A DNA stretch of 43,065 nucleotides from Terriglobia bacterium (lineage in GTDB: Bacteria; Acidobacteriota; Terriglobia; Bryobacterales; Bryobacteraceae). The translations under genes and the position numbers were made by a program. Below the pieces are notes generated by a model, which saw only the letters and a program-made list of their open reading frames with translations, was not told the DNA's origin and ran no database searches. This document shows positions 7,927 to 27,197 of the stretch, in pieces (position 1 is the first letter of the stretch; each line of letters begins with the position of its first letter). The stretch spans positions 1 to 43,065 of the forward strand of contig JAIQFN010000051.1 in NCBI GenBank assembly GCA_020073265.1. The letters run 5' to 3'.

Positions 7927-9756
7927 GTGCAAATTGGCCGGTACCGAATCTTGGACGAACTCGGACGCGGTGCGACGGGCATCGTTTACCGGGCTCAGGA
8001 CCCCGCCATCGGCCGCACTATCGCCATAAAAACCATTCGGCTTTCGGACTTTACCGACGACGACGAGCGCGACCGCGTGCGCGAGCGCCTCTTCCGAGAA
8101 GCCCAGTCCGCCGGCATTCTCTCGCACCCCAATATCGTCACCATCTACGACATCGCCGAGGAGAACGGCATGGCGTACATCTTCATGGAGTGCGTCGATG
8201 GCCCGCCGCTCGAAAAGATCCTGAGCAGCCAGCACGCGCTCGATCGCGAGGCCGTGCTGTCCATCCTGGACCAGACCGCCACCGCGCTCGACTACGCTCA
8301 CAAAAAGGGCATCGTACACCGTGACATCAAGCCCGCCAATATCCTGATCCACGAAGGCGCCACCGCCAAGATCACCGACTTCGGCGTGGCCAAGATTCTT
8401 TCCCAGCAGATGACAGTCGCTGGAGTCATGATGGGGACTCCCAACTATATGTCGCCCGAGCAGGTGCAAGGCCACGCCGTGGATGGCCGCGCCGATCAGT
8501 TCTCGCTGGGCGTCATCGCGTACGAGCTGCTCACCGGCGAAAAACCGTTTGTCGCCGATCACCTGCCGGCGCTGCTGTTCCGGATCGTCCGCGAAGATGC
8601 GGTGCCGCCCGAGCGGTTGAACCCGACGCTCGCGCCGCAGGTGGGAGTGGTGTTGCGTAAAGCGCTGGCAAAAAGCGCCGCGGACCGCTACCCGAATTGC
8701 ACGGACTTCATCCAGGCGCTGGCCACCGCGTTAAACGTAAACCCCAATTGGCATGCGCTTCCGAGAACCGTCGCGCAAAACATGCCGACCGTCGGCGGTG
8801 CGGCCCCGGTGCACGACGGCGTTCCCGATCACGCGCCAACTCCGCCGGTGCGTGAACCGGTCCCGGCCGCCGTTCCGGGTTTTGCCGACACCACCCAACG
8901 CGACCGCGAGCCAGCGAATCCGGTTCTCAAGAGCCTGGTGTGGATGCTGGTCGGGATCGGCCTGGTAGGTCTGGTCCTGTTCGGCGCGCAGAAGTATCTG
9001 TTTAATCGCAATACTGAGTCACCGCAGACCACTGCTCAGGTCACCGCGCCGCCCGATCAGGCCGCGACCAAGCCCAGCCCGGTGGGTGATGCGCGCCCCG
9101 GCCAGGCAGCGGAGAAGGAAACGCCCAAGCCGGAGAGTCCACCCGAGACCACTACACCGGCCAGCACCGCGCCAGCAACCACGCCGCCCGAAACTCCGGC
9201 GCACGCACCTGCGGCTGCCGCAACGCCCACGCCTGCAGCTCAGACGCCCGCTGCGAAGGCTCCCGAGAAACGGGTCGAAAAGGCGCAAGCAGAACCCGCG
9301 CCTCGGCGCTCCCTTCCCCCGCCGGTGGTCGAGCCGAAATCCGACGTGACCCAGTCCGTGCAGTTCGTCACTGTTCCGCCCAACGCCCTGGTGACTGTCG
9401 ACAGCAATCCCGCTCAATCCTGCCGCGCGCCCTGCCTGCTGTCTTTATCCTCCGGCCGGCACTCCATGACCGTTACCCTGGAAGGCTACCGCCCCTACCC
9501 GAAGGTGTTCAATGTGCCCGCGGACGACGAAATTTTCCTGCAACTGAACAAGGCCTCCGGCACGTTAAGCGTCACTTCCAACCCGTCCGGCGCCATGATC
9601 GAGATCAATGGTGAAATGCAAGCCCGGCGAACGCCCGCGCTCTTCAACTTCGCGCCGGGTAACTATCGTGTCAAGGTGAGCCGAAACGGCGCCTTTCTCG
9701 AATTCGACGTCCAGCTTCGCGACGGCGAGTTCATAAACAAGCGAGTGGACTTCTGA
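7927..9756 (+). CDS. Membrane Ser/Thr protein kinase with C-terminal PEGA domains
   Basis: Predicted 609-residue Hanks-type kinase (PknB-like). The kinase domain spans about residues 4-275: glycine loop GRGATG, AIK lysine, HRDIKPAN with catalytic Asp133, DFG with Asp151, and MSPEQ as the APE motif. All key residues are intact, so it should be active. A single membrane helix lies at ~336-358 (SLVWMLVGIGLVGLVLFGAQ). A Pro/Ala/Thr-rich linker (about 370-475) leads to two PEGA-type beta domains at ~478-609 on the outside (VTVPPNALVTVDSNPAQSC; VTSNPSGAMIEINGE). The start is GTG at 7927; no ribosome site is visible, but kinase homology begins at residue 3. The TGA overlaps by one base the ATG of the sulfite dehydrogenase gene, indicating translational coupling. 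Confidence 0.93.
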   Translation: MQIGRYRILDELGRGATGIVYRAQDPAIGRTIAIKTIRLSDFTDDDERDRVRERLFREAQSAGILSHPNIVTIYDIAEENGMAYIFMECVDGPPLEKILSSQHALDREAVLSILDQTATALDYAHKKGIVHRDIKPANILIHEGATAKITDFGVAKILSQQMTVAGVMMGTPNYMSPEQVQGHAVDGRADQFSLGVIAYELLTGEKPFVADHLPALLFRIVREDAVPPERLNPTLAPQVGVVLRKALAKSAADRYPNCTDFIQALATALNVNPNWHALPRTVAQNMPTVGGAAPVHDGVPDHAPTPPVREPVPAAVPGFADTTQRDREPANPVLKSLVWMLVGIGLVGLVLFGAQKYLFNRNTESPQTTAQVTAPPDQAATKPSPVGDARPGQAAEKETPKPESPPETTTPASTAPATTPPETPAHAPAAAATPTPAAQTPAAKAPEKRVEKAQAEPAPRRSLPPPVVEPKSDVTQSVQFVTVPPNALVTVDSNPAQSCRAPCLLSLSSGRHSMTVTLEGYRPYPKVFNVPADDEIFLQLNKASGTLSVTSNPSGAMIEINGEMQARRTPALFNFAPGNYRVKVSRNGAFLEFDVQLRDGEFINKRVDF

Positions 9757-11105
9757 TGAAAATGAACCGGCGTGGTTTTCTAGCCGCGGCCGGCCTGGGA
9801 GCGCTCCCGGGCCTGGCCGGCGGCGCTGACTTGGCCAAGATGATCGTGCGCTCGCCGAATCCGCAGGATCTCGAGATGTCGCCCGACGGTTTCCAAGCGT
9901 GGATAACACCGCTGGACCGCTTCTTCGTGCGCTGCCACACCTACGTGCCCGAGCGCGCCGATCTGGCCACGTGGAAATTGAAGCTGGACGGCGTCGTCAA
10001 CCAGCCGCTCGCCCTCAGCATGGACGATCTGAAAAAACTGCCGCGCGTCGAACTGGTGAGCGTGGCCGAATGCGCCGGCAACGGCCGCAGTTTCTACCAG
10101 CCGCACGTCGCCGGAACGCAGTGGGCCTTAGGCAGCGTCGGCAACGGGCGCTGGACCGGCGTGCGATTCCGCGACGTTCTCGCCAAAGCCGGGCTGAAGG
10201 ACTCCGCTAAGCATATTTTGCTCGATGGCACCGATGTGCCGCTCGGAACCATGCCCAAGTTCCAACGCACCATCACGGTGGAGAAGGCGCTCGACCCCGA
10301 CACGCTGCTGGCTTACCAGATGAATGGCGAAGAGCTGCCCCAGGAGCACGGGTTTCCGCTGCGTGTGATCGCGCCCGGTTGGGCCAGCGACTCCTGGGTC
10401 AAGTGGCTGACGCACGCCGAGGTGCTCGACCACGAGTTCGAAGGATTCTGGATGAAGACCGCCTATCGCCATCCCAAGGGGCCGGTCCAGCCCGGCGCGA
10501 CCGTCGATCCGTCGGAAATGATTCCAGTCACCGATCTGAACGTGAAGTCGGTCATCGCGACTCCGGCGGCCGGCTCCATCAAGAGCGGGCGGGTCCGCAT
10601 CAGCGGCGCCGCCTGGTCCAATGGTTCGCCCGTCACCCGTGTCGATGTTTCCGCGAATGGCGGAGAAACCTGGAAAGCGGCCAGGCTCGCAAAAGATCGC
10701 AGCCGTTACGCCTGGCGTCTGTGGAGTTACGACTGGACCGCGAGCGACGGCAAGTACACGCTCATGGCCCGCGCCACCAACTCCGCCGGCCAGTCGCAGC
10801 CGCTCGAGCAGGCGTGGAATCCGTCCGGATATCTGTGGAACGCGGTCGAGCGCGTCGAGGTCGAGGTCAGCGGCAAAGAGATCATTTCGCTATACACCGA
10901 TGAACCGGCGGCCGCGCAGCAGCAACCCCAGGGTTACCAGGCCGCTTGCCTCACCTGCCATGACGAAGGCATGATGCGCCAGCAGCATCTCACTCCCGCT
11001 CAGTGGGATCGCGAAGTCAACAAGATGACTGGATGGGGCGCCAAGATCAAGCCCGAAGACCGCGAAGCAATTCTGAAATACCTCTCCGACAGCTTCTCGC
11101 AGTAA
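9756..11105 (+). CDS. Molybdenum sulfite dehydrogenase fused to a C-terminal cytochrome c domain (SorA/SorB-like)
   Basis: Predicted 449-residue periplasmic enzyme oxidising sulfite, or a related substrate, and passing electrons to heme. A Tat signal (NRRGFLAAAGLGA) opens the protein. The molybdopterin domain covers about residues 40-245, with the Mo-ligand cysteine Cys106 in SVAECAGNGRSF and the substrate-site stretch GWASDSWVKWL. The Mo-co dimerisation (Ig-like) domain follows at ~260-375 (RVRISGAAWSNGSPVTRVDV). A monoheme cytochrome c domain ends the protein: Cys398-x2-Cys401-His402 with a probable distal Met in NKMTGWG. In classic SorAB these are two subunits; here one chain carries both. 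The gene begins on the last base of the upstream kinase stop codon. Confidence 0.9.
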   Translation: MKMNRRGFLAAAGLGALPGLAGGADLAKMIVRSPNPQDLEMSPDGFQAWITPLDRFFVRCHTYVPERADLATWKLKLDGVVNQPLALSMDDLKKLPRVELVSVAECAGNGRSFYQPHVAGTQWALGSVGNGRWTGVRFRDVLAKAGLKDSAKHILLDGTDVPLGTMPKFQRTITVEKALDPDTLLAYQMNGEELPQEHGFPLRVIAPGWASDSWVKWLTHAEVLDHEFEGFWMKTAYRHPKGPVQPGATVDPSEMIPVTDLNVKSVIATPAAGSIKSGRVRISGAAWSNGSPVTRVDVSANGGETWKAARLAKDRSRYAWRLWSYDWTASDGKYTLMARATNSAGQSQPLEQAWNPSGYLWNAVERVEVEVSGKEIISLYTDEPAAAQQQPQGYQAACLTCHDEGMMRQQHLTPAQWDREVNKMTGWGAKIKPEDREAILKYLSDSFSQ

Positions 11106-11196: not shown

Positions 11197-12393
11197 GTGT
11201 CCAGTCAGCGTCTACCATTGCTTGAAGCAGCGGAGGCCGCGATTGCCCCGTTAGCGGAAGCACCCGCGCTCATTCCGGTATTGAGGCCGCGGCTTCCCTC
11301 CTTGCGTGAGATCGCGCCGTATCTCGAAGAGATCGACGAACGGCGCTGGTACAGCAACTGGGGACCGCTGGTCGCGCGGCTGGAGGAGCAGCTCAGCCGT
11401 CATTTCGGTTTCGCCGAGGGCGGCGTAGTCACTACCGCCAATGCAACCGCCGGGATCACCGCGGCGTTGCTGGCGCGGCGAGTCGAGCCGGGGTCTTTCT
11501 GCCTGATGCCTTCGTGGACTTTCGTCGCCACGCCACACGCCGCGCGCGGGGCAGGCCTGACTCCGTGGTTCCACGATTTCGACTCCCGGACGTGGGCGCT
11601 CGATCCAGTGCAGGTGTCAGAGACACTGAAGCGGATCTCCGTCAAGGTGGGAGCCGTGATCGTCGTATCGCCTTTTGGTGCGCCGCTGGACGTCCAGGCG
11701 TGGGAGGCGTTTGAGGACCGAACCGGCATCCCGGTAGTCATCGACGCCGCCGCCGGATTCGACACGGTGCAAGCCAGCCATATTCCTTCGGTCGTCAGCG
11801 TGCATGCGACCAAAATCCTGGGCGCCGGCGAAGGCGGATTCATCGCCACCACAGATTCAGAGCTGCGCGAACGTCTGGTGGCCTGCTGCAATTTCGGATT
11901 CACGGAATCGCGCTCGGCGATGCTCGCGGCGCTGAACGCGAAGATGAGCGAATATCACGCGGCCGTGGCTCTGGCCAATCTGGCGCGCTGGCCCGAGACG
12001 CGCGCCGGACACGTCCGGATCTGCGAGTGGTACCGTGCCGGTATTCAGCGCCTGCCGGGTGTCTCGCTTCAGCCAGGTTACGGAGCGGGCTGGGTCTCGG
12101 CTACGACCAGCGTTCTGCTTCCGCTGGATTCGGCCGCCTGGGTCTCACGCGAACTGGTGAGAGCGGGCATCGAGACACGGGCCTGGTGGGGCAAGGGTTG
12201 TCATGTCCAGCCGGCCTTTGCGCATTGCCCCAGAGGCGAACTGTGCGTCACCGAAGACCTCGGTACGCGCGTGCTCGGCCTCCCGCACTTCCCCGGTCTG
12301 CAGACTCGGGATGTCGATACGGTTGTCGACGCGATGAGCCAGGCCCTGCGAAGCTACGCCCTCGGCCGCTTGCGGGAAAGCGTTTGGTCATGA
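11197..12393 (+). CDS. DegT/DnrJ/EryC1/StrS-family PLP aminotransferase (sugar aminotransferase)
   Basis: Predicted 398-residue fold-type-I PLP enzyme that usually aminates a nucleotide-linked keto sugar. Family marks are the opening RPRLPSLREIAPYLEEID, the SNWGPLVARLE stretch, TTANATAGITAALLA (cofactor phosphate site), VVIDAAAGFD (PLP-ring Asp region) and the Schiff-base lysine in VHATKILGAGEGGFI. The start is uncertain: GTG at 11197 or TTG at 11218 both lack good ribosome sites, and family homology begins near residue 27. Its TGA overlaps the methyltransferase ATG by four bases, so the pair is co-translated. With the flagellin locus 4.5 kb away it probably helps build a flagellar or surface amino sugar, but its sugar substrate cannot be named. 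Confidence 0.88.
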   Translation: MSSQRLPLLEAAEAAIAPLAEAPALIPVLRPRLPSLREIAPYLEEIDERRWYSNWGPLVARLEEQLSRHFGFAEGGVVTTANATAGITAALLARRVEPGSFCLMPSWTFVATPHAARGAGLTPWFHDFDSRTWALDPVQVSETLKRISVKVGAVIVVSPFGAPLDVQAWEAFEDRTGIPVVIDAAAGFDTVQASHIPSVVSVHATKILGAGEGGFIATTDSELRERLVACCNFGFTESRSAMLAALNAKMSEYHAAVALANLARWPETRAGHVRICEWYRAGIQRLPGVSLQPGYGAGWVSATTSVLLPLDSAAWVSRELVRAGIETRAWWGKGCHVQPAFAHCPRGELCVTEDLGTRVLGLPHFPGLQTRDVDTVVDAMSQALRSYALGRLRESVWS

Positions 12394-13088
12394 AGGAATC
12401 CTCCGCTTCTCAGCACAGCTACTGGCAGGATCATTTCCGGCGCCAGCATCCGAAGAAGAATGGGGCCGGAATCGCCAAGAGTATGGATTACTCCAACGAC
12501 CGCCTTCAGGTGCAGACCTACGCTCACATCCTGGAAGCGCTCGGCTCGCTGAGAGGGCGAACACTGCTGGATGCCGGCTGCGGCTGGGGACTGTTCAGTC
12601 TGATGGCCTACTCCTTGGGCGCGTCTCCAGTGGGCGTGGACTTCGTGCCTGAGACCATCGAGGCTCTTCGAGATCTTCATCCGATGATTCGCTGGGAAGT
12701 GTCCGACCTTGCCGGTGCCGGCCAACTGGATTCCCTGGGAGTTTTCGATCGAGTCGCGGCTGTAGAGATCTTACAGTGTATGCACTTCCAGTCGTCACTG
12801 GCCGCTCTCTGGAGCCGGGTTGCTCCCGGAGGCCGGCTGGTGGGGTGCGTGCCAAACAGCCTGTGCCCGTTTGCTCCCGGTGTAAGACAGCGCCTCCCGG
12901 AATGGATACCAATTTCGCCGGAAGAGATCAGCACGGCTGCACATGGACTTCCCGGATGTTCCGAAGTGATTTTCAAAGGCCTCACTTACCTCGAAGACCA
13001 GCACTTTCTCCCCTACGTCGCGTCAGCCTGGGGACCGTCAATCAGCGGCACGCCAAATCGGATCGTATTTACACTGCTGCGCGCCTAG
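12390..13088 (+). CDS. Class I SAM-dependent methyltransferase
   Basis: Predicted 232-residue methyltransferase. The SAM-binding motif I is LLDAGCGWGLFSLMAY, followed by the acidic motif II (PVGVDFVPETI), motif III/IV (FDRVAAVEILQCMHF) and a VAPGGRLVGCVPN motif V/VI strand-turn. The start is the ATG at 12390, which overlaps the DegT stop codon (ATGA), so it is translationally coupled to the aminotransferase. Extending the frame upstream to 12027 only covers antisense-like sequence inside the aminotransferase gene. Likely role: methylating a sugar or a small precursor in the same pathway. The last 20 bases overlap the 3' end of the convergent gene at 13069. Confidence 0.88.
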   Translation: MKESSASQHSYWQDHFRRQHPKKNGAGIAKSMDYSNDRLQVQTYAHILEALGSLRGRTLLDAGCGWGLFSLMAYSLGASPVGVDFVPETIEALRDLHPMIRWEVSDLAGAGQLDSLGVFDRVAAVEILQCMHFQSSLAALWSRVAPGGRLVGCVPNSLCPFAPGVRQRLPEWIPISPEEISTAAHGLPGCSEVIFKGLTYLEDQHFLPYVASAWGPSISGTPNRIVFTLLRA

Positions 13089-14136
13089 CTGCGGCCGCCA
13101 GGAATACGCCGGCCTGCCGGTCCATATCGTCAAGGCTGCAGCGCTGATCGCAGATCAGCGTGAGACAACTGGACGCTAGGCCATGGCTGGGATGGAAAGA
13201 TTCCGGCACCACTCCGTTGATCGGCCAATGTAGCGGTGCGTAGATCCGGCGGTGATGCAGTTTCCACAGCACCTGGTTGCGAATGCCCGGCTCGACCCGC
13301 ACCGGGAACCCCAAGGGAACAACATCTCCTGCCAGCTCTGGAAAAAGAGCATATTGTCCGAGGAGCTCCAGCAGCCTCGCGTAGTTCGCGCGGCGGCGCT
13401 TCCGAATTTCGTCGAAATCCGCGCTCGAAATCAGCATTCGCGAAAGGTCGCTCGCGCGGTACGGTCCGACCGGAAATGTGGCTTCCACGCGCTGAAAAAG
13501 TTTGTGCCAGTCATTGGGCCGGCCAGTCAGGTCGAACTCGCGCCGCTTGAGCGCCATTGCAACGGCGGAGCGCCACCAGGATCGCGGAGGTTCGTCGAGC
13601 GAATCGGGCGCCAGCCGGCTTCCGCCATCCGAAAGCATGACACCCCCGTCGGGAACGCCCAGGAATTTCCTCGGACTGTACAAAATCGAGACGCTTTCGC
13701 GAAACTGCCGGGGAAGAAAGAGCGCCTGGCTTGCGTCCTCGACGAGCAGCGCGCCCCTGCTCAGGACGCCGTCAAACGGGAAAGTGGCGTTCGGGAATCC
13801 GAAGTAATGGATGACGAGCACCAGGTCGCCGGCGCGGATTTCCTGGGTCCAGTCCGTCCCGCTCACTCTGAGGCTTTCGTCCAGGCCGTAGTAACGAATC
13901 GGGACGCGGCTCCTGACGAAGGGCTCGCGAATCGAACCGCACAGATAAGAAGGCAGCCATGCCGTGCCTGGCCGGTGAGCCGCGCAAAGCGCCAGCAACG
14001 CGCAGCGGGCGCTCAAGAAGTATTGCGCTTCCGGTCCGAAGAAAGGCGCAGCAGCGCCGCCGAAATCCGCCGGAAGCTCCAGCCCGAAGGCGCCGCCGAG
14101 GATTCTACCGGCGGACCACTCAGACGGCTTCCGCAT
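13069..14136 (-). CDS. Second DegT-like PLP aminotransferase (divergent)
   Basis: Predicted 355-residue PLP fold-type-I protein, quite different from the one at 11197. Recognisable parts are SARCALLALCAAHRPG (phosphate-binding region), LLVEDASQALFLPRQ with the PLP-ring Asp, and the Schiff-base lysine in LYSPRKFLGVPDGGVM. The last third is poorly conserved, so its substrate may not be a nucleotide sugar. It is the last gene of a leftward set: it starts 17 nt inside the acyltransferase gene, which itself overlaps the OGT gene. This overlap chain suggests one operon. It ends 20 bp inside the convergent methyltransferase gene. Confidence 0.75.
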   Translation of the reverse strand: MRKPSEWSAGRILGGAFGLELPADFGGAAAPFFGPEAQYFLSARCALLALCAAHRPGTAWLPSYLCGSIREPFVRSRVPIRYYGLDESLRVSGTDWTQEIRAGDLVLVIHYFGFPNATFPFDGVLSRGALLVEDASQALFLPRQFRESVSILYSPRKFLGVPDGGVMLSDGGSRLAPDSLDEPPRSWWRSAVAMALKRREFDLTGRPNDWHKLFQRVEATFPVGPYRASDLSRMLISSADFDEIRKRRRANYARLLELLGQYALFPELAGDVVPLGFPVRVEPGIRNQVLWKLHHRRIYAPLHWPINGVVPESFHPSHGLASSCLTLICDQRCSLDDMDRQAGVFLAAAARRAAV

Positions 14137-15016
14137 ACCGGTACGCCGGGAAATACTCCGCGTGTTCCGCGGCGGGGCTGGACAGCTCCCGGTAGCGGCT
14201 GGGATCGAGAATCCGTCCGCACAGAAACGCTGTTTTCGTGGTATTCGACCATCCCGCCTTGAACCTGGTCAGTCCGTCCTGCTTCTGGCTGGTTCCAGCG
14301 CCTCCGCCGAGATCGAGCCAGCGCACCTGGCCTTGAAAATACTCGATGGCCTGGCGGTACAGTGCGTAGGAGCAGGCACATTGATATCCGCGCTCGCTGG
14401 CGGCGCTCAAGTGGGAGTATGCCACCTGGCCATGCACGAACCAGAGTTGGGCGCCGACGCACTCGCCGGAGCGATCTATCGCCCGGAGACAGACCAGTCC
14501 CGGCACTCGGAACTGCCGGCGGAACGACTCCGGCGAGAACGCCTGGACGCCCCGGATTCCATGCCGCTGAATCAATTGGCCGTACAGAACTACCCATTCC
14601 GAAAGCATCTGACTCGGCGGATCGCAGATTTCGATTCGAACTTCGCGCAGAGCGCGCTCCGCGTAATACCTGTGATGGGGGCTCGCACAACGCCCCGGCT
14701 GCTCCAGGTCCACCACGAAATGTGTCTTGAACGGTGACACGCGATCGAAGCTGCGCCGGAGCAGGGTTTCATCGTACTCCCCAAACGGATCGGCAACCAG
14801 CACGACGCTCACCAGCCGGTCCCGCAGCGAACTCAGATCGGATTCGAGAGCCCGCCAGTCCGCGCAGCAAAACAGCGGGTACAGGCCCATGGCGTCGCGA
14901 TGGATGGAATTCGCGACCGGCCGTTCGAGCAGCAGCCCGCGGCTGGCAGGCAGCATCAACGGGGCTCCAAATTCAGCCAAAGCCTCGGCATACAGAGGAT
15001 GAGCATACCCAGTCAC
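14120..15016 (-). CDS. GNAT/FemAB-like acyltransferase (CelD/BcsL-type)
   Basis: Predicted 298-residue protein resembling the GNAT-related 'CelD/BcsL' or FemAB-like acyltransferases. The C-terminal half shows the typical pattern: a strand-loop (VCLRAIDRSGECVGAQLWFV), then HLSAASERGYQCACSYALYR, the helix YFQGQVRWLDLGGG and FKAGWSN. Such proteins transfer acyl or aminoacyl groups to sugars or amino groups. No signal peptide or membrane segment is visible, so it is cytoplasmic. It overlaps the 3' end of the OGT gene by four bases and the start of the DegT-like gene by 17, which indicates tight co-translation. Probable role: N- or O-acylation of the sugar used by the OGT-like enzyme (inference from context). 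Confidence 0.7.
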   Translation of the reverse strand: MTGYAHPLYAEALAEFGAPLMLPASRGLLLERPVANSIHRDAMGLYPLFCCADWRALESDLSSLRDRLVSVVLVADPFGEYDETLLRRSFDRVSPFKTHFVVDLEQPGRCASPHHRYYAERALREVRIEICDPPSQMLSEWVVLYGQLIQRHGIRGVQAFSPESFRRQFRVPGLVCLRAIDRSGECVGAQLWFVHGQVAYSHLSAASERGYQCACSYALYRQAIEYFQGQVRWLDLGGGAGTSQKQDGLTRFKAGWSNTTKTAFLCGRILDPSRYRELSSPAAEHAEYFPAYRYAEAV

Positions 15017-16779
15017 AACCGCTCAACCTGGGCGCGGCACCAGGCGCGCCACATGTCCCGATAAGCGTTTTCGACGCTGCGCACCAGACCGATTTCATCC
15101 ATCAGCGGCGAAGACTGGAGCGCCTGACGCACCTGGCGCCTGAGATCGGGTATCCTCGGCACGGTATCGGCCAGATACTGCTCCGGCGTGTGAGCCACCA
15201 GGTCATTGAGGCCGCACGCCGAAAGCACGCTCGCCCCGGATCGCTGTACCGCCAGTCGGCCGGCCAGAGTGACAACCGGAACGCCCATCCAAAGGCTATC
15301 CAGCGTTGTGGTGCCGCCATTGTACGGGAACGGGTCGAGCGCGATGTCGATCTCGCCAAATGCCCTCAAGTAGTCCAACGGGAGACTGGCGCCGAGGAAC
15401 CGGATGCGTTCGGGAACAATCCCGTCCTCTAGAAACCAGCTACGATAGCGGTCCTGCACTGCTTCTGTATCCAGGCCCCGATACTTGAGCAGCAGCCGGC
15501 TTCGAGGGGCCAGGTGCAGGATGGCAGACCAGAGCTTCACCACGTCGCGAGCGATCTTTCGCGGGTTGTTGAAAGAGCCAAACGTGACGTAGCCGCGTTC
15601 CAGGCAAGGCGGGGGCGCCAGGGGAACGTCGGCGAGCGGGCGATAGCAGCTTTCCGCGCGCAGCCGGTACAATTTTTCGCTGAACAAGTGCTCGGTCCCG
15701 GGACACGGCATGTGCGCGTCGCCGATAAAGTAATCCATGGCCGTGAGGCCGGTGGTGCTCAGGAGGCCGAGCCAGGAAACTTGAACCGGTGCGGGCTTCA
15801 GGGCAAACCCCAGAAACGCCCGGCCCATGGTGTGGCCGGCCAGGTCGACCAGGATGTCGATTCCGTCCGCGCGCGCCCGTTCGGCGAATTCGGGGCCGGC
15901 GCCCGGCATCGATGCGTAGTTGTCAACGCTTCGCCGGAACTGCTCGGTCACGTCATCCGATTTCGAACCAACCGCGTAGACGAACGTTTCGAAGCGCGAG
16001 CGATCGTGATGCTCGATCACCGGCGGGAAGAAGCGCATCATCGCGTGGTTACACAGGTCGGGCGACACGTAACCTACCCGGAGGCGGCGCTCGGGATCGG
16101 GAGCGTTGGTGTGAGGCTGAATGCGTGCAGCCATTGGCGCGGCGTAGAGAGAATTCCAGCGGCAGGCTTCGGCGAACAGGTTCTCGGGCGTCGTGTCGGT
16201 GAGAAAGTTCATCTCAAAAAGCAGATTGCTGTGCGGCTCCGGATGGGGTTGGAGCTCGATCGCGCGCCGGCGGCTCTGGCAGGCTTCCGTGATGCGGCAC
16301 AGGGCGGAGCAGCAATCGGCCCGCGCCAGATGCGCGAAGCCATAGCCGGGGTCTGCCTGGATGGCTCGGTCCGCGCAGGCCAGGCCGGCGGCGTAATTCC
16401 CTTCGTTCCAATGCATGTTGGACAGCAGCGACTCGACCCTGGCCGCCAGCGCCGCGTCCAGACTCATCGCCTTTTCCAGATGCGGGCGGGCTCGCCGGTA
16501 GTCGCGCAATTGTTCATAGGCGTACCCCAGGCTGAATTGTCCGGTCGCCCAAGCGGGCTTTTGCGAGACCATCTCGGCCAGCAATGCAGTCGCCGCGCGC
16601 TGCACACACGGGGCTTCACATTCGCGGCCCGCCGTCACTACGGCCGTCTGGCCCAGGGCGCGCTCGAAACAATCCAGAGCCTCCCGGTAGCGATGGGAGT
16701 CCAGCATGCGGCAGCCGAGATGGGCGGCTGCGAGCCTGGTGCGGGCGTGTTTCGGTGTTTTGCGGGTTCGGATCTTCAC
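15013..16779 (-). CDS. TPR/SPINDLY-type O-GlcNAc-transferase-like glycosyltransferase, probable flagellin modifier
   Basis: Predicted 588-residue protein. The N-terminal half (about residues 10-195) holds tetratricopeptide-like repeats that would bind the protein acceptor (FSLGYAYEQLRDYRRARPHL; YAAGLACADRAIQADPGYGF). From ~225 on it is an OGT/SPINDLY catalytic domain (GT41 type): RVGYVSPDLCNHAMMRFF with the conserved His, DILVDLAGHTMGRAFLGF, PAPVQVSWLGLLSTTGL, VTFGSFNNPRKI and DIALDPFPYNGGTTTLDSL (nucleotide-sugar binding). The start is GTG at 16779. It follows the flagellin gene in the same direction, separated by a terminator, and overlaps the acyltransferase gene. Protein O-glycosylation of flagellin is the obvious proposal; the sugar is not known. 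Confidence 0.92.
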   Translation of the reverse strand: MKIRTRKTPKHARTRLAAAHLGCRMLDSHRYREALDCFERALGQTAVVTAGRECEAPCVQRAATALLAEMVSQKPAWATGQFSLGYAYEQLRDYRRARPHLEKAMSLDAALAARVESLLSNMHWNEGNYAAGLACADRAIQADPGYGFAHLARADCCSALCRITEACQSRRRAIELQPHPEPHSNLLFEMNFLTDTTPENLFAEACRWNSLYAAPMAARIQPHTNAPDPERRLRVGYVSPDLCNHAMMRFFPPVIEHHDRSRFETFVYAVGSKSDDVTEQFRRSVDNYASMPGAGPEFAERARADGIDILVDLAGHTMGRAFLGFALKPAPVQVSWLGLLSTTGLTAMDYFIGDAHMPCPGTEHLFSEKLYRLRAESCYRPLADVPLAPPPCLERGYVTFGSFNNPRKIARDVVKLWSAILHLAPRSRLLLKYRGLDTEAVQDRYRSWFLEDGIVPERIRFLGASLPLDYLRAFGEIDIALDPFPYNGGTTTLDSLWMGVPVVTLAGRLAVQRSGASVLSACGLNDLVAHTPEQYLADTVPRIPDLRRQVRQALQSSPLMDEIGLVRSVENAYRDMWRAWCRAQVERL

Positions 16780-16838
16780 GTGTGTCCGGTGCTATCGAGA
16801 TGTGTGAAGCCGGGGCGAATTATTCTCAGGTCAAGACG

Positions 16839-16878
16839 AAAAAGGGGCGAAGGCGAGCGGTGAAGCTCGTCTTCGCCC
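16839..16878 (-). terminator. Intrinsic terminator of the flagellin gene
   Basis: On the minus strand a stem of GGGCGAAG (pairing 16845-16852 with 16871-16878), extended by the GAGC/GCTC inner pairs, is followed by five Ts (A-run 16839-16843). It lies 38 nt after the flagellin stop codon and separates it from the OGT-like gene. Confidence 0.85.
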
Positions 16879-16915
16879 GGAACAAAAGGAGGGCTATCTT
16901 GGCTCTACGGCTGCA

Positions 16916-18478
16916 TTAACTCTTGAGCAGTGAGAGCACCGCTTGTGGGGCCGCATTGGCTTGCGCCAGAGCGGCGACGCCGGCTTGCATCAGGATCTGC
17001 GCCTTGGTCAGGTTGGCAGCCTCGCTCGCCAGATCAGCATCACGAATGCGCGACTCGGCTGTTCCCAGGTTGGTCAACTGCGACTGAGCCAGGTTCACGG
17101 CATAGATGAGCTCGTTTTGCGCGCGGCCCACATGGCCCTGGATCTGGCCGAGGTTTTGGACGGCGGTGGACAGCGCGGTGACAGCGGCGGTCGCGTTTCC
17201 GGATGTGGAAATGTCGACCGCGGTGGAGCTGGCCAGCGTCCGGCCACTGAGGTAGCTGGAATTGCCTCCCGCCGTGAGGCCGCCCGCGCTGATCACGGAA
17301 TCGTCATAGGCCAGGTTGAGCGAGAAGGGGTTGCCATCGGCTTTCATGAAATCGGCGTTCCCGCCGTTGAGGACGGCGAAAATGCCGGCGCCCTGCAGCG
17401 TCGAATCGGCATTGATGGTGTCCACCAACGCCTGCGTGGTGCCCGAGTTGGCGACCGTGAGATCGACCGTTCTGGCGTGCGCAACCCCGGCCGTGTCCGT
17501 CCAGTTGAACGTGGCGTGCTGGGTGCCGAGACTGACGGCTGCCGCGCCCACGCCGGAAATCGACGACTCGGCGACTTCATGCAGGTTGGCATCGCCTAGC
17601 AAGTCGGCAGCACCGGTGCCGGCGCCGCCGTTGGCCTTGATGGCGAAGGCTTCCGCCGACGTGAACACCAGTTTCCCAGTGGAGTCGATGGAAGCGCGGA
17701 TGTTGGCCGCGGCCAGTTGCGTGCTGCTGTTGGCTGCGCTCTCGATGGCCGTATTCAGCACGCTGACCAGATCGGATTGGCTCTTCACCGCGGTAAATCC
17801 GGTGCTGAAGTCCACCGTTACCTTGGCGCCGGACCCGGCCAGATAAAAGTCGAACTTGTCGCCCGCCGTGGCCCGGCCCACCGCGGTGGATAGCGCCGTG
17901 GAGCCGGGATTCATGTCCGCTCCCGTGATGCCGTTGGACGACAGGCCCAGGCTGGTGGTGTCCAGCAAACTGGAGCTCATGTCCACCGTCACCGATCCGT
18001 TGGTGATGGAATCGGTGCCGGCCGCATCAGTCCTGCCGCCGCCGATGAACACTGCCATGGATTTTGCGAAGTCGCCGCCCGAGATCATGCCGATCGACTG
18101 CGCCTGCCGGTTGATTTCCGTCAACACGTTCTGGAATTCGCCGTTCAGCACGCTGCGGTCGCCGGTGAACGTGTCCGACGCGGATTGCGTCGCCAGCGTT
18201 CGGGCGCGGTCAAGCAACATCGATATGTTGCTCATGCCGCCGTCGATGGTCTGCAATGTTGACAAACCGTCATTGGCGTTGCGGATACCTTGACTCAACA
18301 CCGCCTGGTCGGAACGATAGCCGTTGGCCACCGCTAAGCCGGCTGCGTCGTCGCCGCTCTGGACAATGCGTAGACCCGAGGTCACGCGGCTGATGGTCTT
18401 GCTTTGGAAGTCGCTGTTGGTGCGCAGATAGTTCTGGGCTTGCAACGATGCAACGTTGGTATTAATACTAAAAGACAC
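16916..18478 (-). CDS. fliC: Flagellin (FliC)
   Basis: Predicted 520-residue flagellar filament protein. The conserved D0/D1 ends are unmistakable. N-terminal: SFSINTNVASLQAQNYLR, then VTSGLRIVQSGDDAAGLAVA and TIDGGMSNISMLLDRARTLA. C-terminal: RIRDADLASEAANLTKAQIL, then QAGVAALAQANAAPQAVL. The middle (about residues 135-430) is variable, rich in Ser, Thr, Ala and Gly, and would be the surface-exposed part available for O-glycosylation. The start is GTG at 18478 with a strong AAGGAGAG ribosome site. Upstream are a sigma-28 promoter, csrA and fliW; downstream are a terminator and an OGT-like gene. Export is by the flagellar type III system, as no signal peptide is present. Confidence 0.97.
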   Translation of the reverse strand: MSFSINTNVASLQAQNYLRTNSDFQSKTISRVTSGLRIVQSGDDAAGLAVANGYRSDQAVLSQGIRNANDGLSTLQTIDGGMSNISMLLDRARTLATQSASDTFTGDRSVLNGEFQNVLTEINRQAQSIGMISGGDFAKSMAVFIGGGRTDAAGTDSITNGSVTVDMSSSLLDTTSLGLSSNGITGADMNPGSTALSTAVGRATAGDKFDFYLAGSGAKVTVDFSTGFTAVKSQSDLVSVLNTAIESAANSSTQLAAANIRASIDSTGKLVFTSAEAFAIKANGGAGTGAADLLGDANLHEVAESSISGVGAAAVSLGTQHATFNWTDTAGVAHARTVDLTVANSGTTQALVDTINADSTLQGAGIFAVLNGGNADFMKADGNPFSLNLAYDDSVISAGGLTAGGNSSYLSGRTLASSTAVDISTSGNATAAVTALSTAVQNLGQIQGHVGRAQNELIYAVNLAQSQLTNLGTAESRIRDADLASEAANLTKAQILMQAGVAALAQANAAPQAVLSLLKS

Positions 18479-18686: not shown

Positions 18687-18914
18687 TCAGGGCCGGATTT
18701 TTTGGATGGCCCGTTCCAGATCCGCCGGCGCAGGCCCGCGCGCGGCCTTCACGTTCTGCTCTTGCGTGAGCTTGAGCTCCTTGCGAAGCACCATCGTCTG
18801 GCGCGGCGCTCGCACGCCGATCTTGGCGCCTTGCGAGCTCACCGCCAGCACTTCAATCTCGATGTCGTCGCCGATCAGCACCGACTCGCCCACCCGCCGC
18901 CGCAGCACTAGCAT
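18687..18914 (-). CDS. csrA: Carbon storage regulator CsrA (RNA-binding translational repressor)
   Basis: Predicted 75-residue CsrA: MLVLRRRVGESVLIGDDIEI, then VLAVSSQGAKIGVRAPRQ, with the RNA-contacting first strand (LVLRR) and the GVRAP region intact. The C-terminal tail (to residue 75) is typical of CsrA paired with FliW. CsrA dimers bind GGA motifs in mRNA leaders. In flagellated bacteria with FliW, flagellin mRNA is the main target. The ATG lies 7 nt inside the 3' end of fliW, so the two are translationally coupled and probably made in fixed ratio. Confidence 0.97.
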   Translation of the reverse strand: MLVLRRRVGESVLIGDDIEIEVLAVSSQGAKIGVRAPRQTMVLRKELKLTQEQNVKAARGPAPADLERAIQKIRP

Positions 18915-19381
18915 ATGCCCTCGTATTCCTGGGTGGTACGGACCGCATCGATGGGATGCTCGTGCGAGTACGACGCGTCCCGCCGGATGGCCTGCAGAGC
19001 TCGCCGCGTCTTGAGATTCACCACGATCGGCGCCATTAAATTGGCGGTGGCCGAAAAACCGTCATGCAGCGACACCAGCGCGAGCACCAGCACTTCCGTG
19101 CCTAATTGCGGCGGCCGCTCCGGATCGAGCTCCAGCGCCGCCAGATCCTCGGGTGCCACCGCGAGCCGATAATCGCGATCCACCACCAGGATCGGAAGCG
19201 CTAGAAAACAAAGCTCCGGCTGGCTTAGGCTCTGCAGGAAAACCAACGGCGCCTGCTCGGGCGTTTCGATGAAGACGAACCGGGTTTGATCCTCGAAGGA
19301 CGGCAGCCCGGCCGGAAAATCGAACACCGACGCTTCGGCGTAGACCATCGATCCGAAATATTTGGTTTCCAGCAGCGGCAT
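18908..19381 (-). CDS. fliW: Flagellar assembly factor FliW (CsrA antagonist)
   Basis: Predicted 157-residue FliW. The family pattern is clear: ETKYFGSMVYAEASVFDFPA, GLPSFEDQTRFVFIE, PLVFLQSLSQPELCFLAL and VVDRDYRLAV, with the later ANLMAPIVVNLKTRRALQ segment. FliW is held by free flagellin; when flagellin is exported, released FliW binds CsrA and relieves repression of flagellin translation. The ATG at 19381 lies 21 nt after the DUF4342 gene, and csrA overlaps its end. It therefore probably belongs to a leftward operon starting at 21034 or 19693. Confidence 0.96.
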   Translation of the reverse strand: MPLLETKYFGSMVYAEASVFDFPAGLPSFEDQTRFVFIETPEQAPLVFLQSLSQPELCFLALPILVVDRDYRLAVAPEDLAALELDPERPPQLGTEVLVLALVSLHDGFSATANLMAPIVVNLKTRRALQAIRRDASYSHEHPIDAVRTTQEYEGIC

Positions 19382-26330: not shown

Positions 26331-27197
26331 CTAGGGCGCGATGGCTCTCGCAAGCCCGACGGATTCTTTGTTCCCCCAATCCTCGCGCGGCTCGGCTGCG
26401 GCTCGGGCAAACATCCACAACCGGACGCGCTCGCGATCCACGCCTGCCAGATCCGCGACGCACCCGATCGTCCCGGCCGCGTCCGCGCGCAGTCGCGCTC
26501 CACAATTGAACAGGTGCTGCGTCGCGTCATAAGCCGGATCCCCGACGAATGGCTTGGGGTCGATGACCAGCCATGGCTCCCGCTGCGACCGCAGAACATT
26601 GCCGGCGTGCAGATCGGTCGCCAGCAACACGGCGGTCGTCGCACTGCGCGGCAACTCTTGAAATAGGGCCAGACCTTGACGGACTAGCCCTGCATCGGGC
26701 CAGCGTTTGACGTCGGCCGTTGTCTCGCGACTCCAATGTTCCATCAAAGCCGACAATGGACGGAACGGATGCGGCGCCGAAGGCGTACGCCACAGCCGGC
26801 GGAGCAGCCTTGCGATCACCACATCCTGCTCGATCTCCGGCAGCGCGCGCAGCGCCGTCCCTGGCTCGCAACGCTCCAGCAGCATGGCGCCAAGCTCATC
26901 GTCCGCCTCAAGGAGCCGCACCACCGGGTCCCCGTCCCAGAAGCGCAATCCTTGGAGTTCGTGCTCGGCTTCCAGGTGCGGCATGCCGAGCTTCAGCACC
27001 GCCGAAGTTCCGTCCGCGAGCCCCACCGGCGCTACCCACGCACAGCTCACGTCTTCGCCCTCGAACGGCGGACCGATCGATAGCGACCATCGGCGCTCCA
27101 GGTCTCGCAAGGCGTCCGGCAACCGGTCGAGCCATGCGCTCCGTTCAAACGTTTTGCGGCAGTTGGCCGCCAGCCGGCCCGGGATTCTCAACGCCAT
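26331..27197 (-). CDS. Aminoglycoside/hydroxyurea phosphotransferase-like kinase (APH(6) family)
   Basis: Predicted 288-residue small-molecule kinase of the APH(6)/hydroxyurea-phosphotransferase group. The N-lobe lysine is in GTSAVLKLGMPHLEAEHE. The catalytic loop is LLATDLHAGNVL, with the expected Asp and Asn, followed by the metal-binding VIDPKPFVGDPAYD. Length and motifs match streptomycin 6-kinases, but many chromosomal members have no resistance role, so the natural substrate is unknown. Its ATG lies two bases beyond the stop codon of the MoaD-like gene, which itself overlaps the BNR-protein gene, so it is the third gene of a compact operon. That setting argues for a metabolic rather than a resistance function. 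Confidence 0.82.
   Translation of the reverse strand: MALRIPGRLAANCRKTFERSAWLDRLPDALRDLERRWSLSIGPPFEGEDVSCAWVAPVGLADGTSAVLKLGMPHLEAEHELQGLRFWDGDPVVRLLEADDELGAMLLERCEPGTALRALPEIEQDVVIARLLRRLWRTPSAPHPFRPLSALMEHWSRETTADVKRWPDAGLVRQGLALFQELPRSATTAVLLATDLHAGNVLRSQREPWLVIDPKPFVGDPAYDATQHLFNCGARLRADAAGTIGCVADLAGVDRERVRLWMFARAAAEPREDWGNKESVGLARAIAP

Follow-up and report, generated by a model that had tools for sequence, protein, structure and literature searches.

A candidate flagellin glycosylation cassette in a Bryobacterales genome, with a flagellin-linked GT41 enzyme and a probably separately acquired amino-sugar module

In the flagellin islands of Enterobacteriaceae, variable inserts beside the flagellin gene fliC hold SPINDLY-domain glycosyltransferases of family GT41 together with DegT and S-adenosylmethionine (SAM)-dependent methyltransferase genes (PMC4875605, in the part of the text available to us). 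In Caulobacter crescentus, the flagellin O-glycosyltransferase FlmG (596 residues) joins an N-terminal tetratricopeptide repeat (TPR) part, which binds flagellin, to a C-terminal GT-B glycosyltransferase domain and acts in the cytoplasm (PMC7591256, in excerpt), and the viosamine island of Pseudomonas syringae encodes the aminotransferase VioA, VioB for N-acyl transfer and the methyltransferase VioM, whose product on flagellin is an N-acylated, O-methylated 4-amino-4,6-dideoxyglucose (PMC3927599, in excerpt). The accessible portion of a description of Geobacillus flagellin islands (PMC5109656) mentions neither GT41 nor TPR. Here we describe a cassette on contig JAIQFN010000051.1 of a Terriglobia bacterium (Acidobacteriota; Bryobacterales; assembly GCA_020073265.1); the window analyzed is this entire contig, 43,065 nucleotides of a 6.4-Mb draft genome. 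Five genes beside fliC encode two DegT-family proteins (DegT1 and DegT2), a methyltransferase (MT), a GNAT whose predicted fold resembles that of FemX, and a GT41 enzyme (OGT). We consider it likely that this cassette decorates flagellin in the cytoplasm, combining a separately acquired amino-sugar module with a flagellin-linked GT41 O-glycosyltransferase.

The kind of system is known, from GT41 flagellin glycosylation islands and from FlmG, and the form of the cassette looks new; it was not found described in the literature searched, a scope that left most subscription journals outside. With the enterobacterial islands the window shares a SPINDLY-domain GT41, DegT and methyltransferase genes beside fliC. 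Those islands sit between fliC and fliA, and a methyltransferase domain is part of most GT41s there, whereas the window has a separate methyltransferase gene, belongs to another phylum and pairs a Fem-like GNAT with a very distant DegT; the available part of PMC4875605 mentions several DegT types and N-acetylation, and no Fem-like enzyme. FlmG resembles the window GT41 in its N-terminal TPR and C-terminal glycosyltransferase domains and in size (596 versus 588 amino acids); the likeness is drawn from its description, with which architecture and flagellin linkage agree, and the Caulobacter vibrioides control genome matches PF13844. FlmG uses pseudaminic acid, however (PMC7591256, in excerpt), the genes for which are not in the window block. 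The viosamine island shares the logic of aminotransferase, N-transferase and methyltransferase, but there VioT (1,173 residues) adds the sugar to a rhamnosyl glycan, whereas the window GT41 would attach it directly, and vioS, vioR and acp make the acyl group, whereas the donor in the window may be an aminoacyl-tRNA (PMC3927599, in excerpt). No vioS/vioR-like match was found among the ten proteins scanned between 7.9 and 21 kb of the window; the small acp was not searched for.

The cassette and its flagellar neighbors are arranged as follows (Pfam E values or bit scores in parentheses).

11197 to 12393, forward strand: DegT1, DesI-like pyridoxal phosphate (PLP)-dependent nucleotide-sugar aminotransferase (PF01041, 3.6e-60)
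12390 to 13088, forward strand: MT, SAM-dependent methyltransferase (PF13489, PF13649 and PF08241, each ~1e-6)
13069 to 14136, reverse strand: DegT2, distant DegT-family PLP enzyme (by relatives, profile and predicted fold)
14120 to 15016, reverse strand: GNAT, Acetyltransf_6 protein with a Fem-like predicted fold (PF13480, 23.9 bits against a cut-off of 22)
15013 to 16779, reverse strand: OGT (GT41), predicted short-TPR enzyme of SPINDLY/TtOGT type (PF13844, 1.8e-42)
16839 to 16878, reverse strand: probable intrinsic terminator in the fliC–OGT gap
16916 to 18478, reverse strand: FliC flagellin, presumed acceptor (PF00669, 8.5e-26; PF00700, 1.8e-19)
18687 to 18914, reverse strand: CsrA (PF02599, 2.5e-18; stop position read by eye)
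18908 to 19381, reverse strand: FliW (PF02623, 2.6e-25)

On the reverse strand fliW, csrA and fliC precede the OGT, GNAT and DegT2 genes, on which DegT1 and MT, joined by an ATGA overlap, converge from the other strand. The GT41 and GNAT genes overlap by 4 bases, and their translation is therefore likely coupled; GNAT and DegT2 overlap by 17 bases, and MT and DegT2 meet tail to tail with a 20-base overlap. The open reading frames (ORFs) of the window and the domain scans thus place the five genes and fliC, with their overlaps, where the initial annotation had put them.

Judged from its sequence, the window GT41 is a short-TPR protein O-glycosyltransferase of the SPINDLY/TtOGT type, with its activity predicted. 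The PF13844 catalytic region scores 145.8 bits (cut-off 25) and N-terminal TPR repeats are present (TPR_2 at 2.9e-13 and others), forming a TPR part clearly shorter than that of SPINDLY in comparison with PDB entries. The best PDB matches are 5djs (1.6e-85), which we take to be TtOGT, and SPINDLY (7y4i, 5.2e-81), with human OGT (~1e-40) and XcOGT (~1e-28) ranking behind them. In the region that aligns with SPINDLY and TtOGT the enzyme keeps K408, H245, H316, T490-492 and D494; the catalytic roles presumably fall to the lysine after the FGSFNN motif, the histidines of the NH and GHT motifs and the TTT-x-D loop.

The distribution of GT41 was read from a sample of 150 genomes of the order (the present one included), and that of the sugar genes also from 347 genomes of the phylum. 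GT41 was found in 36 of the 150 order genomes and a PF00669 match in 127; all 36 GT41 genomes carry such a match (Fisher P = 0.0012, a test that ignores kinship, with a profile that also catches FlgL). The position of GT41 beside flagellin is not chance: among the 35 other GT41 genomes, 14 have the gene 285 to 3537 bp from a flagellin match, counting the matches listed (P = 2e-19 to 3e-15 at an assumed chance of 1 to 2% per genome). Linkage is also clustered on the GT41 tree, with 8 label changes versus 13.6 to 13.7 expected and 0 to 1 of 500 shuffles as low, on a quick tree calculated without bootstrap that omits L092 and L103 for their broken frames. Left out of the GT41 loci were G036:C42 (contig numbers alone placed G036 among the unlinked genomes) and additional copies in G016, G082, G083, G104 and G121. 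The nearest GT41 to that of the window, from genome G014, is 58 to 59% identical, itself lies beside flagellin and is its sister on the tree (Shimodaira–Hasegawa-like approximate likelihood ratio test [SH-aLRT], 100).

The linkage of GT41 to flagellin that had been proposed from the window therefore recurs in relatives (14/35), often with sugar-modifying enzymes adjoining. A methyltransferase ORF adjoins GT41 in 8 of the 14 linked loci: in L092, L096, L099, L101, L102 and L103 its C-terminal domain is of the C-methyltransferase kind, while L093 and L095 have a Methyltransf_9-type enzyme. Two further loci (L094 and L097) have a DegT gene nearby, so that a methyltransferase or DegT gene is near GT41 in at least 10 of the 14 (the neighbors of the other four were partly scanned). 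As a separate observation, the recurring C-methyltransferase-type gene at six linked loci suggests C-methylated flagellin sugars in these relatives.

These distributions bear on a further explanation, that GT41 glycosylates cytoplasmic proteins in general and acts mainly on targets other than flagellin, its linkage to fliC being historical. TtOGT and SPINDLY are its nearest solved relatives, and in 21 of the 35 other GT41 genomes no flagellin was seen near GT41 among the matches listed, some of their contigs being short. However, linkage stands far above assumed chance, clusters on the tree and concerns a gene present in single copy in the genome, and we regard this explanation as very unlikely.

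While GT41 is linked, the remainder of the block is not. At the 14 flagellin-linked GT41 loci no homologue of the window MT, DegT2 or GNAT was found, and a DegT1-like gene occurs at 2 of them; conservation of the whole five-gene block beside fliC was rejected, given these 14 loci and the occurrence of DegT2 in 5 of 150 order genomes. The five-gene neighborhood sought beside fliC in acidobacterial relatives is accordingly not conserved. The initial annotation had named unlinked OGT, GNAT and DegT genes in related genomes as grounds for giving up its proposal; GNAT and DegT are indeed unlinked there, whereas GT41 is linked. GT41 belongs to a lineage that in this order already stood next to flagellin, and the sugar module was probably acquired separately.

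The 136 bases between fliC and the GT41 gene contain a hairpin (−24.7 kcal/mol, z = −4.0) with T5 after it, a feature absent from the output of a consensus terminator scan. Because the hairpin and T5 separate them, fliC and GT41 may not form one simple transcript, which corrects the earlier statement that the OGT gene directly follows fliC. The genome has two strong flagellin matches, the window fliC and one on contig C128 (G000:C128:77428; L062, 10417 to 11895); the latter lies directly before fliD in the apparent main flagellar cluster, a cluster without GT41, since PF13844 was found at no locus of the genome other than that in the window. On this basis the cassette could be silent or decaying and its flagellin unmodified: besides the hairpin, sigma-70-like promoters numbered 0 versus 1.7 expected by chance (other sigma types were not covered), the filament may consist mainly of the second flagellin, and in relatives the frames of two linked GT41s are broken. 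Yet all six window genes have intact frames, their starts and stops overlap and key residues are retained, and we consider silence or decay highly improbable. The serine and threonine content of the FliC middle (residues 131 to 425; 70 of 295 residues, 0.237) was rejected as evidence of glycosylation, since 16 other flagellins span 0.208 to 0.281.

DegT1 matches PF01041 at 204.5 bits, with Lys206 and Asp183 within the expected motifs; its best NCBIfam match is DesI (174 bits, cut-off 650) and its PDB matches are 3ju7 and 2po3. It forms a clade with proteobacterial cassette DegTs (L187, L194, L195 and L197; SH-aLRT 100) in a tree that warns of long branches meeting; the five-row window clade is starred there and its inner order is unreliable. 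For MT, Pfam and NCBIfam scans gave no specific family and the PDB matches were generic.

DegT2 alone has no Pfam or NCBIfam match and does not reach the PF01041 cut-off. Its relatives match PF01041 in 6 of 10 aligned sequences (E ≤0.01), their profile matches DegTs of the PDB (best 3.8e-07), and Lys157 and Asp134 are invariant among those aligned. The possibility that DegT2 is a chance frame was rejected, since nine relatives in distant loci are 26 to 42% identical and keep the PLP lysine. Its AlphaFold2 model (predicted local distance difference test [pLDDT] 84.8) matches ArnB in Foldseek with a probability of 1.00, a template modeling (TM) score of ~0.6 and a root-mean-square deviation of ~10, and also WecE, perosamine synthase and other DegT enzymes; given the large deviation, the parts of the model are probably set differently from known DegT folds. 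We conclude from profile and model that DegT2 is probably an active PLP enzyme, which may be a second sugar aminotransferase or the maker of the transferred group. Counting the present genome, DegT2 occurs in 10 of the 347 phylum genomes. In distant relatives at L152, L153, L155 and L157, which are exopolysaccharide-type clusters, the DegT2-like gene adjoins, overlaps or lies near a larger Acetyltransf_6 GNAT gene, from which DegT2-GNAT pairing may be general; at L147 the neighbor is WbqC-like and not a GNAT.

The GNAT was compared through its predicted structure, a family profile and an alignment of the window with 28 of 40 loci recovered by a GNAT-profile search of genome contigs. The alignment omits L160, L168, L172, L173, L177, L179, L181, L184, L190, L191, L193 and L196 as duplicates, cut, off the ORF list or on short contigs, although L160, L173 and L179 held usable ORFs. 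In Foldseek, the best solved matches of the AlphaFold2 model (pLDDT 94.8) are FemX (a peptide synthase that depends on aminoacyl-tRNA), MprF and aminoacyl-phosphatidylglycerol synthases, with a TM score of 0.71 for FemX versus 0.43 for a tandem GNAT of clavulanic acid biosynthesis (2wpw, 2wpx). The profile recovers FemX (9.4e-11) and, more weakly, two tRNA-dependent synthases (6.7e-4 and 5.4e-3). The usual coenzyme A (CoA)-loop motif is missing where it would be expected in all 29 GNATs but lies elsewhere in 9 of them, which makes it a weak test of CoA-dependent acetylation. Lys253 is invariant (29/29 aligned) and aligns with the FK lysine of FemX, Lys305 by a count made by hand, which is the catalytic residue in FemX (PMC12945691, in excerpt). 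FemX and the window GNAT thus share a double-GNAT fold and an equivalent of Lys305; in the accessible text of PMC12945691, on FemX and GNAT-fold transferases, the terms "glycoprotein", "flagell" and "polysaccharide" do not occur.

Because the GNAT is Fem-like by profile and predicted fold, aminoacyl transfer is a serious alternative to acetylation, and the enzyme may load an amino acid from aminoacyl-tRNA, in place of an acyl-CoA group, onto the amino sugar. The acyltransferase that the initial annotation invoked for an acylated sugar is, in this reading, a Fem-like transferase. Several results temper this assignment. PF02388 stays below its cut-off in the window GNAT (17.8 bits against 24), although 12 of the 29 aligned sequences match it at E ≤0.01, and other Acetyltransf_6 proteins show similar lysines by pattern, and the family at large may share the fold and such a lysine. 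As a control, two other Acetyltransf_6 partners of DegT2-like genes were compared with the PDB as single sequences and matched nothing convincingly; since the window GNAT alone gave none either, this control does not make Fem-likeness special to the GNAT family. In two phyla a gene for a beta-keto acid cleavage enzyme (BKACE) lies a few kilobases from the GNAT (L146, 14582 to 15472; L180, 7113 to 8039), which could hint at another acyl source or transferred group.

Across the phylum, the GNAT is found in 10 of the 347 genomes (the present one counted), with four others strong; in each of these four a DegT1-like gene shares the stretch, within clusters of polysaccharide type, a judgment made by eye here and throughout. 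Among the 40 GNAT loci, within the stretch retrieved for each, a DegT1-like gene is present in 31, a DegT2-like gene in 9 and a GT41-query match in 3 (weak in L184). The nine DegT2 loci (L161, L174, L180, L185, L188, L192, L194, L195 and L197) span seven phyla; all except L174 and L180 also hold a DegT1-like gene, and in L174, L180, L185, L192, L195 and L197 the DegT2 and GNAT genes are overlapping or immediately adjacent. The module accompanies FlgH, FlgI, FlgK and a flagellin-fold protein in L188 (Calditrichia), flagellin, FliD and a CheA-type kinase in L192 (Chloroflexi), and flagellin and two GT41s in L195 (Rhodocyclaceae). L194 (Caulobacterales) has DegT1, DegT2, GNAT and two GT41s, with no flagellin seen within 21 kb and a match only to the chemotaxis-regulator-like one of the flagellar-cluster queries. 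In L197 the module occurs with a GT61 and in L187 GNAT and DegT1 occur with a GT2. Flagellar genes are present at 3 of 9 DegT2 loci versus 0 of 31 others (Fisher P = 0.0085, uncorrected for short contigs), and no flagellar locus beyond L188, L192 and L195 emerged from a search of all 40 loci in which 43 ORFs of L062, L188 and L192 served as queries. An earlier flagellin search covered 22 of the 40 loci and gave a match in 13 of those 22 genomes. ORFs came from a longest-frame picker, some being N-terminally extended, and 8 of the 40 loci are shorter than 10 kb, where absence of a partner says little. Since they occur with GT41, GT61 or GT2 and in several phyla, the sugar genes appear, from these sequence comparisons, to move between glycosyltransferases and between phyla. 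That sugar genes of the right kind for flagellin glycosylation lie here is likewise borne out by the same kind in flagellar clusters of other phyla.

Several observations nevertheless weigh against a cassette directed at flagellin, among them those given above for the hairpin after fliC, the opposite strand of MT and DegT1, broken frames (L092 and L103, 2 of the 14 linked loci), unlinked GT41s and the module missing from linked loci. Only 3 of the 40 GNAT loci show flagellar genes and many others look polysaccharide-like; the same-genus genome G091 lacks GT41 and has one weak PF00669 match among the matches listed; and the DegT genes are the sole nucleotide-sugar synthesis genes within the five-gene block. 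In part these points favor a division of labor in which GT41 puts an ordinary sugar on flagellin while DegT1, MT, DegT2 and GNAT serve a surface polysaccharide, as neighbors by chance or regulation: 37 of the 40 GNAT loci are without a flagellar gene, DegT1 and MT lie on the strand opposite to GT41, and GT41s of relatives adjoin flagellin without the module. In contrast, the ten proteins scanned include no polysaccharide glycosyltransferase, flippase or polymerase, the GT41-GNAT overlap makes coupled translation likely, and the module occurs with GT41 in L194 and L195 and with flagellar genes in L188, L192 and L195. We judge this division of labor unlikely.

Elsewhere in the window, positions 9756 to 11105 encode a SorA-like sulfite dehydrogenase and a C-terminal cytochrome-type domain in a single protein, and positions 26331 to 27197 a kinase of the APH(6)/hydroxyurea family (PF04655).

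The observed gene content, families, linkage and recurrence are consistent with flagellin decoration by the following scheme, which is predicted in its substrates, step order, acceptor sites and transfer, and in glycosylation itself. A keto-deoxy nucleotide sugar (e.g., dTDP-4-keto-6-deoxyglucose) would be supplied by genes elsewhere in the genome, which has one RmlB over the cut-off and a sugar nucleotidyltransferase ~14 kb away on that contig. DegT1 would aminate the keto sugar, most likely at C4, the Fem-like GNAT would amidate the resulting amino group, DegT2 would add a second amine to the sugar or shape the transferred group, and MT would methylate the product. GT41 would bind flagellin via its short TPR domain and transfer the finished sugar to serine or threonine of the flagellin middle domain before export. 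We propose more tentatively, as a doubtful extension, that the flagellin sugar is aminoacylated from aminoacyl-tRNA by the FemX-like enzyme before GT41 attaches it, and that DegT2-GNAT-DegT1 forms a module, widespread and transferable, that makes aminoacylated amino sugars for polysaccharides and, in several phyla, for flagellin glycans.

The cassette extends GT41-based flagellin glycosylation, as predicted here, to the Acidobacteriota, in one order of which it recurs, and points to a glycosyltransferase that remains beside flagellin while sugar genes are exchanged. The recurrent DegT2-GNAT pair offers a handle on a sugar pathway in several phyla and, if the aminoacyl proposal is true, the Fem-like GNAT would link tRNA charging to flagellar decoration.

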